From Bacteroidota bacterium (GTDB lineage: Bacteria; Bacteroidota; Ignavibacteria; Kryptoniales; JAKASW01): a stretch of DNA of 50,167 bases. The notes beneath the pieces are model-generated. The model ran no database searches, was not told the origin of the DNA, and saw only the letters and a program-made list of their open reading frames with translations. Below, in pieces: positions 1,216-41,573 of the stretch (positions within the stretch are counted from its first letter, which is position 1; each line of letters opens with the position of its first letter). The stretch lies in NCBI GenBank assembly GCA_021812985.1, contig JAKAMG010000021.1, forward strand, positions 1-50,167, read 5' to 3'. A program made the translations under genes and the position numbers.

Positions 1216-3294
1216 ATGGCCACGACAGTAGACAGGATATCAGGCAGCAAAGCCTTTAAGTTCTTGGGAAGCAACACGGACCTCGTTCTCGCGGGTCTCG
1301 TGCTTCTCATCCTGTCTTTGATGATTGTCCCCCTTCCGCCTTTCATGCTGGACGTCCTCATCTCGGCCAACATTACCTTCTCCATCGTTCTTCTTATGGT
1401 GGCAATGTACGTGACGAGCCCGCTGGAGCTGTCGGCTTTCCCCGGCCTTCTCCTAATACTTACACTTTTCAGGCTTTCGCTGAACGTTGCATCTTCGAGG
1501 TTAATACTGAGCAGAGGCTACGCGGGGCAGGTCATCCACGCGTTCGGCTCTTTCGTCGTGCAGGGGAACTACGTCGTCGGCGTGATCATCTTCATTATTC
1601 TCGCGACCATCCAGTTTGTCGTGATCATCAAGGGTTCGGGAAGAATCGCGGAAGTCACCGCCAGGTTCACCCTGGACGCGATGCCTGGGAAGCAGATGAG
1701 TATCGACGCGGACATGAATTCCGGGCTGATAACCGAAGAGCAGGCGAGGCAGAGAAGGATGAACCTTCAGAGAGAGGCTGATTTCTTCGGCGCGATGGAC
1801 GGTGCCAGCAAATTTGTCAAGGGAGACGCCGTCGCCGGTATGATCATAATACTGGTCAACATCATAGGCGGCTTCATAATCGGCATGGCCCAGCTCGGCA
1901 TGAATTTCACGGAATCGCTTTCGCGCTACACGCTCCTCACAATAGGAGACGGCCTGGTGACTCAGATACCCGCGCTCGTGATATCAACAGCCGCCGGCAT
2001 GATAGTGACGAGAAGCGCATCGGGCGGACAGCTCGACCAGGAATTGAAGCAGCAGTTGTTTTCCCGTCCGAAGGCCCTCTACATAGCGGGGAGCACCCTC
2101 GGCTTTTTTGCCATCATACCAGGCCTGCCCACGGTCCCATTCCTCGCGCTTGGCGCCATCATGGGTGCGGCAGGTTACATGCGCTCCCAGCTGTCCGCGA
2201 AGAAGGCCGAACCCGAGCAGGCCGTGGCTGAGCCGGCTGAGAAGAAGGATGAAAAGATTGAATCCTATCTTCAGGTCGATCCGATCGAAGTCGAAATCGG
2301 TTACGGCCTCATCTCTATGGTGGACGAGACGGCGGGCGGTGATTTGTTCCAGAGGATAACGAGCCTCAGAAAACAAATCGCACTCGAGCTCGGCATGATG
2401 GTCCCGCCCATACGCGTCCGCGATAACCTCCAGCTCCAGCCGAGCCAGTATGTTGTCAAGATACGCGGCGTACAGGTGGCATCGGGCGAACTTTATATGG
2501 ACAGATACCTTGCGATGAACCCGACGATGAAGGAAGGGGACATGCCGGGGATATTCGTAACCGACCCGACATTTGGGCTTCCGGCGGTATGGATAGAGAA
2601 GTCTCAGCGGGACGATGCAGAGATCCTCGGATATACGGTGATCGAGGCGCCGGCCGTCATGGCGACACATCTCGGCGAGACGCTCAAGCGAAACGCGGAC
2701 AGAATCCTGAGCAGGCAGGAAGTCAAAATGCTCATAGATAATCTGAAGAAGGAATACCAGGCACTCGTCGATGAAATCAACCCTGAAGTCCTCCCGCTCG
2801 GCTCGCTGCAGAAAGTCCTACAGAATCTCCTTAAGGAGCGGATCCCGATCAGAGATCTGGTGACCATAATAGAATCGCTTCTGGATTACTCCAAAGTAAC
2901 GAAGAACACCGAGGTTCTCACGGAGTATGTGCGCCATACGCTCTCCGAGACTATCGCGTCGCTCTACGCTGATACCTCGGGCGTGATACACGCGATCGCG
3001 CTCGACCCGTCGGTGGAACAGCTGATCTCAGCATCGCTTCAGAACCAGAAAGAAGTTTCAGGGACTCTTGGCCTCTCGCCCGAGGTCACGAAGGGTATCA
3101 ACAAGAGTGTTTCGCAGAACCTCGAACAGGCTCAGTCCTTCGGTTACGCGCCGGTGGTCATCTGCTCTGCGACCGTCCGGCTCTATTTCTACAGGCTTAT
3201 TCACACAAACTTCCAGCAGGTCTCGGTGACATCTTACACGGAGCTTCCAGCCCGCACTGAGATCGACATTATCGGAAGGATAGTAGCGCAATGA
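1216..3294 (+). CDS. flhA: Flagellar export gate protein FlhA
   Basis: The product has 692 residues, the usual FlhA length. The N-terminal half is strongly hydrophobic (about eight membrane segments up to roughly residue 325) and contains the conserved FHIPEP-family stretch around LEL-SAFPGLLLILTLFRLSLN and the charged loop with DAMPGKQMSIDADMNSG. The C-terminal half is the soluble docking domain that receives chaperone-substrate complexes. FlhA forms the nonameric export-gate ring with FlhB, FliP, FliQ and FliR. Its TGA overlaps the flhF ATG (ATGA), implying translational coupling. Confidence 0.97.
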   Translation: MATTVDRISGSKAFKFLGSNTDLVLAGLVLLILSLMIVPLPPFMLDVLISANITFSIVLLMVAMYVTSPLELSAFPGLLLILTLFRLSLNVASSRLILSRGYAGQVIHAFGSFVVQGNYVVGVIIFIILATIQFVVIIKGSGRIAEVTARFTLDAMPGKQMSIDADMNSGLITEEQARQRRMNLQREADFFGAMDGASKFVKGDAVAGMIIILVNIIGGFIIGMAQLGMNFTESLSRYTLLTIGDGLVTQIPALVISTAAGMIVTRSASGGQLDQELKQQLFSRPKALYIAGSTLGFFAIIPGLPTVPFLALGAIMGAAGYMRSQLSAKKAEPEQAVAEPAEKKDEKIESYLQVDPIEVEIGYGLISMVDETAGGDLFQRITSLRKQIALELGMMVPPIRVRDNLQLQPSQYVVKIRGVQVASGELYMDRYLAMNPTMKEGDMPGIFVTDPTFGLPAVWIEKSQRDDAEILGYTVIEAPAVMATHLGETLKRNADRILSRQEVKMLIDNLKKEYQALVDEINPEVLPLGSLQKVLQNLLKERIPIRDLVTIIESLLDYSKVTKNTEVLTEYVRHTLSETIASLYADTSGVIHAIALDPSVEQLISASLQNQKEVSGTLGLSPEVTKGINKSVSQNLEQAQSFGYAPVVICSATVRLYFYRLIHTNFQQVSVTSYTELPARTEIDIIGRIVAQ

Positions 3295-37115: not shown

Positions 37116-38258
37116 TTGAACAGGAGAGAGTTCACAAGGCTGATGGGTTTGAGCGGCGTCAGCCTCGCGGCGGGAAAAATTCTGCCCGGAATTCGCTTGC
37201 CATTTAACACGAGGAACGAAAGGCACATGAAACAGTGGGCTTGGATCGGGACTGATGTTAACTCATCTCCCGACGACTGGAAGCGGCGCTTCGCGGTCAT
37301 GAGGGAGTCAGGCATCGACGCGATCCTTCCCGAGATATACAACAGCCGGCAGGCCTTTTACAGGAGTAGTCATCTTCCAACCGGTCAGCCCTGGCTCGAA
37401 ACCATAATCCCTCTCGCGAAGGAGGCGGGGTTAGAAGTCCATGGCTGGATGTGGACAATGCCGTGCAACATCGACGAGATTGTTGACAAACATCCGGAAT
37501 GGTTCGTGGTCAATCGACTCGGCGAATCGTCCACGGTAAAACCAGCATACGTGAAATACTACAAATTTCTCTGTCCGTCCCGGCCGGAGGTGTGGGAATT
37601 CGTAGGTAAAACTGTCTCTGAACTGTCGCAGATCGACGGCCTCACCGGAGTTCATCTCGATTACGTGCGCTACCCAGATGTCATTCTGCCAATCGGATTA
37701 CAGCCGAGGTACAACATAGTTCAGGACCGCGAATATCCTCAGTACGATTACTGCTATTGCGATGTGTGCCGTGACAGTTTCAAGAAGGAAAGCGGTATCG
37801 ATCCGATGAAACTCGGAGATCCGTCGGAGAGCGAGGCCTGGAAGGAGTTCCGCTATAAGAGAATCACGCATCTCGTCAACGATGTTTTGCTCCCAATCGC
37901 GCACAAGGGAGGTAAGAAAATGACGGCGGCGGTGTTCCCGAATTGGAAAGACGTCAGGCAGCAGTGGTCCCAGTGGAAGCTCGACGGATTTCTACCGATG
38001 CTGTATGCCGCTTACTACAACGGCGGGGTCGATTGGATAGCTAAGAAAACTGGTGAGGAAGTAAAGTCACAGCGTTACGGCGCGCCGGTCTATAGCGGGC
38101 TATCAGTCGGCCAGCTGAGTCCAGAGGAGATTGCCGAGGCGGTCCGATTGACAAGTAAGGCCGGAGGGAGCGGTGTCTCGCTCTTTTCGGCGCAGGCAAT
38201 GAGCGAAAAGAAATGGGCAAGCCTGAAATCGGCAATTGAATTGTTGAAGAAGGGGTGA
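37116..38258 (+). CDS. Tat-exported glycoside-hydrolase-like (GHL10/DUF187-type) protein
   Basis: The TTG at 37116 is the start: GGAGG precedes it by six bases, and the nearby ATG at 37111 runs straight into a stop. The 380-residue product opens with a twin-arginine signal (NRREFTRLMGLSGVSLAAG) implying folded export. The body has a TIM-barrel pattern of GHL10/DUF187-type proteins: WAWIGTD, AILPEIYNSRQAFYRS, AGLEVHGWMWTM, GLTGVHLDYVRYPDV and FLPMLYAAYYNGG. The substrate is unknown, probably an extracellular or wall polysaccharide (inference). It is not obviously linked to its neighbours. Confidence 0.82.
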   Translation: MNRREFTRLMGLSGVSLAAGKILPGIRLPFNTRNERHMKQWAWIGTDVNSSPDDWKRRFAVMRESGIDAILPEIYNSRQAFYRSSHLPTGQPWLETIIPLAKEAGLEVHGWMWTMPCNIDEIVDKHPEWFVVNRLGESSTVKPAYVKYYKFLCPSRPEVWEFVGKTVSELSQIDGLTGVHLDYVRYPDVILPIGLQPRYNIVQDREYPQYDYCYCDVCRDSFKKESGIDPMKLGDPSESEAWKEFRYKRITHLVNDVLLPIAHKGGKKMTAAVFPNWKDVRQQWSQWKLDGFLPMLYAAYYNGGVDWIAKKTGEEVKSQRYGAPVYSGLSVGQLSPEEIAEAVRLTSKAGGSGVSLFSAQAMSEKKWASLKSAIELLKKG

Positions 38259-38266
38259 GAACTGCG

Positions 38267-38295
38267 CCGGAGTCACATCCTGATGTGCGCTCCGG
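38267..38295 (+). other. Hairpin immediately upstream of the SRPBCC ribosome-binding site
   Basis: CCGGAG-T-CACAT pairs with ATGTG-CG-CTCCGG around a four-base CCTG loop, giving eleven pairs and a small internal loop. It starts nine bases after the preceding stop. No T run follows; instead AAGGAGGT begins two bases later. It is either a weak terminator or a structure affecting translation of the next gene. Confidence 0.5.
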
Positions 38296-38310
38296 TCAAG
38301 GAGGTCAGTC

Positions 38311-38751
38311 ACGCAAAAGGATATCGTACTTTCATGGCTTCTGAGCCAGCCGCCTGAATCGGTTTGGGAATACCTGACCAATTCAGACCTCCTATCGAAG
38401 TGGCTGATGCCGAACGACTTCAGGGCGGAGGTGGGACGCAAATTCAGGTTCACGACGAACCCGAAGGTGAAGTTCGGCTTCGACGGAATCATTTACTCGG
38501 ACGTGCGGGAGGTTGTCCCATTTAAACGACTTTCGTATTCTTGGAAAGGGGGTCCGGGGGGCGGGAGGATAACCCTTGATTCCACGGTAACCTGGACTCT
38601 CACGCCGAAAGACGGCGGCACCGAGCTTCTTCTCGAACACACTGGATTCAGCGGGATGAAAAACTACTTCGCCTACCTGATGATGAAGAACGGCTGGGGA
38701 AGCATGATAAGGAAGAGACTGGAGACACTCCTGGCAAGATCCGGAAAGTGA
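38311..38751 (+). CDS. SRPBCC (AHSA1/START-like) protein with a non-canonical start
   Basis: The frame is open from the stop at 38281. It encodes a typical SRPBCC N-terminus (LSQPPESVWEYLTNSDLLSK, WLMPNDFRAEVG) and continues to 38751 with RLSYSWKGG, TWTLTPKDGGTELLLEHTGF and a final helix. No ATG, GTG or TTG occurs before Met at 38407, and starting there would remove the first helix and strand. A perfect AAGGAGGT at 38298-38305 lies six bases before an in-frame ACG at 38311, so I give that as start; the protein is then 146 residues. A mutated or misread start codon is the alternative. Function: small-ligand binding or stress-related fold, unspecified. Confidence 0.72.
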   Translation, partial: TQKDIVLSWLLSQPPESVWEYLTNSDLLSKWLMPNDFRAEVGRKFRFTTNPKVKFGFDGIIYSDVREVVPFKRLSYSWKGGPGGGRITLDSTVTWTLTPKDGGTELLLEHTGFSGMKNYFAYLMMKNGWGSMIRKRLETLLARSGK

Positions 38752-39068
38752 GGTGCTTTCGTGGATTCGTTTTCAGACGATTGCAGTTTCAAGCGGGGAG
38801 AAGTGTTTCGGAACCTTTCGCGTGACACGATGATGATGAGGGCGCTCATCTCTGCCGGACTCTTTTTAATGTAGTATATCGGGAACGAACGTCACTAACT
38901 TTTGAAGCAGGATGGCCGTGTTGAGCTGCAGCAGCTGATCGACTACTTCGTGACATTCGGATGGAGTACGAAACGCTGGCAGGTTCACGCGACTTCCGGA
39001 CCCGCGGACGGCCCGTTCTCCCGGGACAATTTCAATCGGGCCGCGGCCTCGTCTGTCCAACCACAATC
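38752..39068. other. 317-base gap between convergent genes, no gene seen
   Basis: Between the SRPBCC stop and the Lon-like stop (opposite strand) I find no frame with a ribosome-binding site or recognisable product on either strand. Short open frames that extend into the protease gene are antisense shadows. No strong hairpin with a T run stands out. Confidence 0.5.
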
Positions 39069-41573
39069 TTACCTTTTACCCCTCCGCGCTCCTATCTTTT
39101 TTCTCCTTCCTCCCCGCTTCCTCGTCACCTTTTCGCCTCCTTCTCCCGCAATCTCCTTGAGTCTCTGTGCGGCCAATCCGAAAACAGATTTCTCGTCGAA
39201 TTTACCCTTCGCGTCCTGCCTTCCGGCAGACACGCCTGTCAGTATTTCAATTCCTTCCGTTATCTGCCCGACCGGATAAACATGAAACTTCTTTTCCTTT
39301 ACGGCCTGGACAATTTCATCGCGAAGCACCAGGTCTTTCACGTTTCTCGTCGGTATGATCACTCCCTGATTTCCGGTCAGTCCTTTCGACTTGCATACAT
39401 GGAAGAAGCCTTCAATTTTCTGGTTCACTCCGCCGATCGGCTGTATGTCGCCCTTCTGGTTGACGCTTCCGGTAACGGCTATACCTTGCCTGATGGGAAG
39501 ATTACTGAGGCTGGAGAGTATCGCGTAAAGCTCGGTGGACGAAGCGCTGTCCCCGTCGACGCCGCTGTATGACTGCTCGAAGGCTATGCTCGCCGAAAGC
39601 GACAGCGGTTTCTCCTTCGCGAATTTCTCGCGTAAGTATCCGGAGAGCGTAGCAACACCTTTGTCGTGCAGCTTGCCTGAGAGATTCGATTCTCGCTCTA
39701 TGCTGGTTACGCCGGCCTTTCCTGCTCCGACAGCCGCAGTTATCCGAGTCGGTCTCCCGAATGAATAATAGCCGATATCGTAAACCGACAGCCCGTTCAC
39801 CTGCCCGACGCGCTCACCCGTTGTGTCGATCATCAACACGTCCTGCTCGATCATCTCCTGCACCTTGTCCTCGAAGAGGTTATTCCTCTCTGTGAGTGAG
39901 TCGATGCTCTTCAGAACGTCTTCTCGGTTGACGAATTTATGGCTGTTCTTGCTTGCCCAGAAGCTCGCCTCGCGCAGGAGGTCCGCGATGTCGCTGAACC
40001 TTGTCCATAGTTTGTCCTGACGTCCAGCGCGTCGTGCCGCGTACTCTATCACCGCGGCTACGCCTGATCTGTCGAAATGCATCAGGTGTTCCACGTTGCA
40101 GATGCGCGCTACGAACCTCGCATATTCGTCTATTTTGCGGCTGTCTCTATCCGTCTCCCGGTCAAAGTCCGCCTTGACCTTAAATATCTTTTTGAAGTCC
40201 TCCTCGGAGTCGTAGAGTATGTCGTAGATGTAGGGGTCGCCAATGAGAATCACCTTGACGTTGAGATCTATTGGCTCCGGCTTCAGCGCGGTGGAACTGA
40301 TCTGGAAGAAAGTATCCAGGGGCTGGATCTCCAGCTTCCTGTATATGAGTGTTCTCTTGAGAGCTTTCCAGACTCCTGGTTCAGTAAGCGCATCGAGGGC
40401 GTTCATCACGATGAATCCGCCATCCGCGCGAAGGAGGGCGCCTCCCTTTATCTTGGTGTGATCGGTCTGGAAGAATCCACGGACGTCGACCGTGCGTTCT
40501 ATCGTCCCGAACAGATTCGTGTAGGTCGGGCTCGTCTCTATCACGACGGGACAGGGCTTCCTGTCGGTATTGTCCTGCACGACGTTTACCCTGTAAACCA
40601 TGAAAGGGTCGGCCTCGCCTCGCCCCTGTGGAGAGGAAGATCCTTCCTGGTCGGGCTCATCGCTCTTCTTGAATATCTGGATGTTGCCGAGCGTGTGTTC
40701 CTGCAGGGCCTTCAAATAATCGAGAACCTTCGCATTGTTCCTGTAACGGCTCACCAGCTCTTCGAATATCAGGCCGACGACGCCCGAGACGGCCTGCCGT
40801 TCCATCTCTTCGACCTTCTTCATCATCTCGTTAGCGAGGGCTGACCCTTTCCTCGCCACTGTTGTAAACTCCTTCTTAAGCTCCTGCAGCTTCTGCTCAG
40901 CGTCGGAAAATTCCTTGACTGTGATCTTTCCTTCCGACGCGAGCTGTTCGAGTTCCTCTATCGGTACTGGCTTGCCATGGTACATCGGAAAGACCTGTGG
41001 CTGGGTGATGGGACCGACCTGGACAGGGACAAGGGCAAAGCCTTCGCTCTCGATCTTCTTCTGGAATTCGAACAGGAGGGCCTTCTCTCTCTTCTCGTAG
41101 GAATCTACGATCTTTCCCCTCGCATCTGTGTATGCCTCTCCGGTGAGAAGCTCGGGCACCTTTCTTCTCAGGTAGCGGACTGTCGCATCGAGGTCCTCTT
41201 TGAATGTACTTCCGTGTCCGCGATCGAATTCGAGGAGTTGGGGGTTGTCTGGCTCCTTAATGTTGAACACGTAGCACCTGTCTGGCGATGGTACACATTC
41301 AACTTTTATTTCCTCAAGGAGTCGCTTGATCGTGGTCAGGCGACCGGTGCCCGATAATCCGCTCACGAATACGTTGTACCCCGGACTCTTGATCTCGACG
41401 CCAAATTGCAGCGCCTTCACGGCCCTTTCCTGACCTATTATGGAGTCTATGGGTTCGAGATCTGCTGTGGATTCGAAATCGAGCTCGGCCTCCGGACATC
41501 GCCAGGTTAATTGGTCGGGAGTAAGCTCAGTAAGTGGAACGCTTTCTGTCTCTGCTTTCTTTCGCGTCTTCAA
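39069..41573 (-). CDS. Lon-like ATP-dependent protease (AAA_32 / Lon_C type)
   Basis: The 834-residue protein starts at a TTG (41573) with GGGAGGG six bases upstream. It belongs to the LonB-like group with an N-terminal AAA_32 region and a C-terminal S16 peptidase domain. The catalytic pair is Ser676 in VDGDSASSTELYA and Lys719 in IGGVNQKIEGF, 43 residues apart as in classical Lon. The Walker A-like motif reads GLSGTGRLTT, with Arg where Lys is usual; this is seen in relatives and ATP use is uncertain. A predicted coiled coil lies near 165-270. The C-terminus is very basic (RGGRRKKIGARRGKR). Likely role: protein quality control. Confidence 0.92.
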   Translation of the reverse strand: MKTRKKAETESVPLTELTPDQLTWRCPEAELDFESTADLEPIDSIIGQERAVKALQFGVEIKSPGYNVFVSGLSGTGRLTTIKRLLEEIKVECVPSPDRCYVFNIKEPDNPQLLEFDRGHGSTFKEDLDATVRYLRRKVPELLTGEAYTDARGKIVDSYEKREKALLFEFQKKIESEGFALVPVQVGPITQPQVFPMYHGKPVPIEELEQLASEGKITVKEFSDAEQKLQELKKEFTTVARKGSALANEMMKKVEEMERQAVSGVVGLIFEELVSRYRNNAKVLDYLKALQEHTLGNIQIFKKSDEPDQEGSSSPQGRGEADPFMVYRVNVVQDNTDRKPCPVVIETSPTYTNLFGTIERTVDVRGFFQTDHTKIKGGALLRADGGFIVMNALDALTEPGVWKALKRTLIYRKLEIQPLDTFFQISSTALKPEPIDLNVKVILIGDPYIYDILYDSEEDFKKIFKVKADFDRETDRDSRKIDEYARFVARICNVEHLMHFDRSGVAAVIEYAARRAGRQDKLWTRFSDIADLLREASFWASKNSHKFVNREDVLKSIDSLTERNNLFEDKVQEMIEQDVLMIDTTGERVGQVNGLSVYDIGYYSFGRPTRITAAVGAGKAGVTSIERESNLSGKLHDKGVATLSGYLREKFAKEKPLSLSASIAFEQSYSGVDGDSASSTELYAILSSLSNLPIRQGIAVTGSVNQKGDIQPIGGVNQKIEGFFHVCKSKGLTGNQGVIIPTRNVKDLVLRDEIVQAVKEKKFHVYPVGQITEGIEILTGVSAGRQDAKGKFDEKSVFGLAAQRLKEIAGEGGEKVTRKRGGRRKKIGARRGKR

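Follow-up and report, generated by a model that had tools for sequence, protein, structure and literature searches.

Introduction

Bacterial pseudogenes that arise through loss of the start codon are of a known general kind. Among non-canonical start codons, the AUU of infC is a rare example, and further cases are said to have been described in Deinococcus deserti by Baudet in 2010. In Bacteroidota, genes of the SRPBCC/AHSA1 family are found with an adjacent gene for an ArsR-type regulator, for example in genome G002 (locus L028), in Chitinophaga (L030) and in Flavobacterium (L057).

Here we describe an SRPBCC/AHSA1 reading frame that carries ACG at the position where its relatives have ATG. 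It lies in a 50,167-nt contig (JAKAMG010000021.1, assembly GCA_021812985.1, referred to as the window) of a Bacteroidota bacterium of the order Kryptoniales. The locus shares family, in-register gene order and start column with the Bacteroidota pairs, and differs from them in that its ArsR gene is a pseudogene, the operators are gone and ACG replaces ATG. It is like start-loss pseudogenes in having a non-start codon at the homologous start position and a degraded neighbouring partner gene; unlike them, it has a frame that is still open and constrained, and the loss would therefore be recent or incomplete. As with the infC AUU and the D. deserti cases, the codon follows a strong Shine-Dalgarno sequence and differs from AUG by a single base, but this ACG is a candidate start seen in the sequence, is not conserved and is not enriched behind Shine-Dalgarno sequences of its genome. 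The intact ArsR of L028 resembles SdpR/ArsR-type autorepressors in scoring 70.8 bits on the NCBIfam model HTH_metalloreg (cut-off 55); unlike them, it scores 66.6 bits on the SdpR model, under the cut-off of 100, and the window gene is dead.

The reading frame and its start column

The locus contains the following features:

37116–38258, + strand, glycosyl-hydrolase-like GHL10 gene, upstream neighbour (PF02638, 43.7 bits)
38266–38296, + strand, hairpin ending just before the Shine-Dalgarno match, with no T run after it, single in the genome
38274–38286, + strand, CACATCCTGATGT, best local match and possible remnant of a promoter region of the L028 type (CATATCTTGATGT, 11/13)
38298–38305, + strand, AAGGAGGT, 8-nt Shine-Dalgarno match to the 16S 3′ end of this genome (ACCTCCTT)
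38311–38313, + strand, ACG where relatives have ATG (L028 ATG at the same column)
38311–38751, + strand, SRPBCC/AHSA1 reading frame, 146 codons and stop, intact apart from the start
38407–38409, + strand, first in-frame ATG; a start here costs 32 residues, and no Shine-Dalgarno match was seen by eye
38761–38973, + strand, ArsR-type regulator pseudogene, in register behind SRPBCC
39069–41573, − strand, LonB-like protease, downstream neighbour and conserved flank

The stop-to-stop frame (38284–38751) is open, and the original prediction was right that it holds no canonical start upstream of 38407, where its first ATG, GTG or TTG stands. Its translation belongs to the AHSA1/SRPBCC family (PF08327), with 81.2 bits against a Pfam gathering cut-off of 22.1, and the score drops to 58.1 bits when the start is placed at 38407. 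The alignment with a solved relative (3q63) begins at residue 4, and the residues immediately 3′ of the ACG align with this structure and with the relatives, so that the complete N-terminal part is encoded. The loss of bits, the 3q63 alignment and the homology bear out the earlier claim that protein-like sequence extends about 30 residues upstream of the first Met. A product beginning at 38407 would have 114 residues and lack the N-terminal part.

Ninety loci were examined, and tblastn gave a match in 89 of them, some rows representing the same gene twice. In L028, the closest intact relative (74% identity), the column of the ACG holds ATG, and in 40/89 rows the nearest canonical start is an ATG at precisely this column. 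In 41 rows an ATG lies one to six codons off the column, two rows have GTG or TTG at the column, and two have ATG 19 codons upstream. The remaining four are without a nearby start: L003 and L029, which are truncated, L050, which is cut by a contig end and has its first TTG at +26, and L086, with its first TTG at +31. ACG occupies the column in none of the 89 aligned rows, all of which are relatives, none being a second strain of the same species. The original prediction had allowed for relatives that start at the downstream Met, and this was not the case: that column (+32) is the site of the nearest canonical start in 0/89 rows. Judged from this alignment, the homologous start site in the window carries ACG. 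A tree of 64 rows selected from the loci places L028, L029 and the window in one group (support 85/80, drawn open), next to the copies from Bacteroidota (93/94).

The leader

A Shine-Dalgarno match followed by an in-frame ACG is present as originally described, with the correction that the spacer is five bases (CAGTC) and not six. The anti-Shine-Dalgarno sequence of this genome is canonical, and the 8-nt match is longer than the 6-nt GGAGGT of L028. We surveyed 801 kb of the 3.5-Mb genome (40 stretches and the window; 525 genes by crude codon-usage prediction) and found 45 copies of AAGGAGGT on the two strands together. At this frequency, a copy is unlikely to stand by chance at the proper distance for a start at the homologous site. 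Only 13 of the 45 occurrences have ATG, GTG or TTG 3–9 bases downstream, and the 8-mer alone is therefore no start marker in this genome. The inference from a perfect Shine-Dalgarno match is further weakened because Bacteroidetes are reported to lack these sequences naturally yet to retain the anti-Shine-Dalgarno (PMC6847099).

The predicted eleven-pair hairpin was recovered with 11 Watson-Crick pairs, or 13 pairs including two G-U pairs. Folded alone it reaches −18.4 kcal/mol (z −3.64, 0/200 shuffles equally stable), for a stretch that was picked after the hairpin had been seen, and a longer stretch of 91 nt that contains it is not exceptional in its fold (z −0.72). The 35 bases downstream, including the Shine-Dalgarno match and the ACG, are weakly structured (−0.9 kcal/mol). 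The hairpin was rejected as a repeated element, its only low E-value match being to itself, with two other loose matches to the stem pattern, and also as an intrinsic terminator, since the T run is absent and none was called on the + strand.

The ArsR partner and its likely operators

In both L028 and L029 an intact gene for a 102-residue ArsR-type regulator (HTH_5, 48.6 and 46.7 bits) starts directly 3′ of the SRPBCC gene. The corresponding stretch of the window is clearly homologous (tblastn E 9e-12) but carries a 1-nt insertion, a 1-nt deletion, a 54-nt internal deletion that runs through the helix-turn-helix, a 3-nt insertion, and in-frame TAG and TAA codons, and the window thus lacks an intact adjacent ArsR. 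This genome has no close intact ArsR copy elsewhere, the two other matches being 31–32% identical. An ArsR match is present in the flank examined in 78/89 rows, on the upstream side in many of the distant ones. In the 32 loci L030–L061, it lies 14–62 bases downstream in 26 and further downstream in two, with no match in four. Literature searches on such ArsR-SRPBCC pairs gave nothing relevant among the titles listed.

Four loci (L039, L044, L048 and L051) have ATG-started SRPBCC genes and no ArsR match in the flank examined, L048 and L051 having one palindrome each of the type described below. An SRPBCC effector without its repressor may persist at other loci too. At L033 (3431–3553) the ArsR match spans residues 51–91 only, and this is possibly another broken repressor.

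Upstream of the SRPBCC gene, two GTAAC-N6-GTTAC palindromes were found in 27 of the loci L030–L061, one in four, and one locus is cut by a contig end. Over the 80 rows examined (nine reverse-strand rows were left out), operators are present in 34. The palindromes are spaced by about 28 bases (near −49 and −21) and lie about 5–50 bases upstream of the SRPBCC start, the second overlapping the SRPBCC leader in most Bacteroidota relatives. We consider them likely to be ArsR operators, judging from sequence and position. In an alignment of five relatives, the first palindrome is preceded by TTTG or TTGCG, and TAnnTTTG or a similar sequence stands between it and the second palindrome, which is followed by ATG; we take this arrangement to be a Bacteroidetes-type promoter. 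Among the papers listed by literature searches, none dealt with the palindrome pair.

Between 38259 and 38310 the window has no GTAAC or GTTAC half-site, and the only GTAAC-N6-GTTAC palindrome in the whole genome is at another place. The stretch 38274–38286 may be a promoter remnant, although 81/2000 shuffles matched equally well and the multiple alignment, its L004 row being a wrong stretch and disregarded, puts the remnant at a different place.

Selection on the two genes

Over 145 codons, the SRPBCC frames of the window and L028 differ with dN 0.158 and dS 1.11 (NG86; YN00 and maximum likelihood gave similar values), corresponding to a dN/dS of about 0.14. In the 102 codons shared by the window, L028 and L029, unique changes at codon positions 1/2/3 number 3/7/14, 7/5/11 and 5/6/23, respectively, and by these counts the window copy evolves no faster than the other two. 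The window-unique changes in ArsR are spread evenly over codon positions (15/11/14 of 65/65/64), a pattern that indicates absence of constraint, whereas L028 and L029 differ from each other at 5/3/25 of 83 each. At positions 1 and 2 combined, ArsR has 26/130 and SRPBCC 10/204 window-unique changes (Fisher p 2e-5), counts that include the branch preceding either loss. From these data, any neutral period of SRPBCC could amount to at most 17–42% of the neutral time of ArsR, depending on the baseline assumed. This limit and the position contrast therefore suggest that ArsR died first and that SRPBCC was retained during the larger part of the time since. Past constraint is no proof of present function, because the truncated SRPBCC gene of L029 also still shows a low dN/dS.

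Gene turnover within the genus

The flanking genes are widespread in the genus (GHL10 in 10/13 genomes, LonB in 11/13) and stand on one contig in five genomes (G001, G002, G007, G009 and G010), in the same order and with variable genes between them. This gap (38258–39069 in the window; L134–L144) differs in gene content among genus members and represents a small gene-turnover site. In G002 it holds a dehydrogenase-like frame, a glycosyl-hydrolase-like 1217-residue frame (both named by eye), SRPBCC and ArsR. In the window the ACG is only 52 bases behind GHL10, and about 4.9 kb corresponding to the two upstream genes of G002 is absent. One in-frame stop each was also noted within the LonB homologue matches of L104 (G010, TAG) and L110 (G004, TGA).

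A match to the SRPBCC gene is found in 3/13 genus genomes, namely the present one, G002 and G009. In G009 (L029:3001–3306) the gene lacks its first 44 codons, the match beginning at codon 45, soon after the end of the upstream gene; the operators are gone and ArsR is intact. The three carriers are in three states: the unit is intact in G002, the effector is truncated in G009, and in the window the repressor is dead and the start lost. The unit therefore appears dispensable, being present in so few genomes and truncated in one of them.

Discussion

Our analysis suggests that the SRPBCC-ArsR unit of the window is probably decaying, with recent loss of the SRPBCC start codon after the earlier death of the repressor. 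As in most Bacteroidota relatives, the original unit would have comprised an ArsR repressor gene beside SRPBCC, with two palindromic operators flanking the promoter, through which the regulator would have repressed its own unit. In the lineage of the window, the repressor gene and both operators are destroyed, with no recognisable promoter left and the two upstream genes of G002 absent, while purifying selection would have acted on the SRPBCC frame during most of the decay of the repressor. A recent change of ATG to ACG would have followed, leaving the gene off or nearly off, with residual initiation at ACG at best or a 114-residue fragment made from 38407. The ATG column in relatives, the ArsR pseudogene, the missing operators, the dispensable unit and the lack of general ACG initiation in this genome (see below) support this interpretation. 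Two observations oppose it: the frame of 146 codons is open, shows no shift and has been constrained, without decay of its own so far, and an 8-nt Shine-Dalgarno match in place of GGAGGT could compensate for a weak start that is in use. The start loss cannot be dated, because the truncated gene of L029 has retained its low dN/dS. As a case of decay, the locus is mainly an example of the stepwise loss of a repressor-effector pair within one genus.

The original prediction offered weak use of the ACG or a mutated start that leaves the gene off or truncated. The second option is favoured by the dead ArsR gene, by the loss of the operators and by the deletion upstream, features that the prediction had not covered. 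Weak use of the ACG is the less likely option, and the locus is most probably a case of ordinary decay and not of a novel mode of initiation. We regard as unlikely, but worth weighing, that the ACG is a working weak start at which the strong Shine-Dalgarno match five bases upstream lets initiator tRNA begin at a low rate, sufficient for the cell and perhaps substituting for the lost repressor. The frame stayed intact and constrained long after the death of the repressor, the 8-nt match faces a canonical anti-Shine-Dalgarno, and both it and the start are exposed just downstream of the hairpin. If the ACG is really used, it would provide a natural, testable case of a weak start codon replacing a repressor. 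According to Belinky 2017 (PMC5622118), the weak starts GUG and UUG tend to have stronger Shine-Dalgarno sequences. In a passage of that study, switches from 61,358 AUG starts led to GUG (363), UUG (113), CUG (2) and AUU (1); ACG is not listed there, a point against a working ACG start.

The genome itself provides no support for general initiation at ACG. Among codons behind Shine-Dalgarno matches of at least 6 nt, tallied within the 5′ portions of frames, ATG (77 observed, 16.3 expected), TTG (14 and 7.2) and GTG (16 and 10.6) exceeded expectation, whereas ACG showed no enrichment in the 801 kb (8 and 9.2). Matches of 8 nt occur at 21 places, with ATG at three and ACG at one, the window's own. 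The tRNA scans (47 Rfam tRNA matches covered, in 30 loci and 15 further stretches) called Met(CAT), Thr(TGT) and Thr(GGT), and no tRNA with a CGT anticodon, initiator-like or otherwise; ARAGORN found no tRNA at three weak matches (one in L208, two in L207). With ACG in 0/89 rows at the start column, these results argue against a working ACG. A literature search covering titles and abstract openings found no bacterial gene with an ACG start.

It is rather improbable that the C at 38312 results from an error in the consensus, or that it is one allele in a mixed population, in which case the population would have ATG. The matter hinges on a single base in an otherwise intact frame, and the assembly consists of 64 contigs from a genome that, to judge from the records of its relatives, is metagenome-assembled. 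Against this, the assembly (3.5 Mb) is 98.95% complete and 0.33% contaminated, and the repressor was broken by many independent changes, a local decay that needs no error.

More doubtful still is a scenario in which repressor, operators and promoter were lost but SRPBCC was retained, its expression capped by ACG behind a strengthened Shine-Dalgarno sequence. If true, a regulated gene would have become a constitutively low one through start-codon choice, at a natural bacterial ACG start.

That the true start lies elsewhere is hardly credible: ATG 38407 is the first canonical in-frame start and the out-of-frame ATG 38283, joined by a frameshift, opens a 24-codon frame across the Shine-Dalgarno match, but homology runs from just 3′ of the ACG, the former costs 23 bits of AHSA1 at a column where no row has its nearest start, and the latter frame stops at 38357 with no relative having such an N-terminus, and both were rejected.

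With gene callers restricted to the starts ATG, GTG and TTG, this locus would be annotated as a 114-residue protein, and the true N-terminus as well as the dead repressor would be overlooked. An SRPBCC homologue in L086 (about 2970–3001) likewise has an open frame that begins late, without ATG, GTG or TTG near the expected start, possibly reflecting a frameshift or another start oddity.
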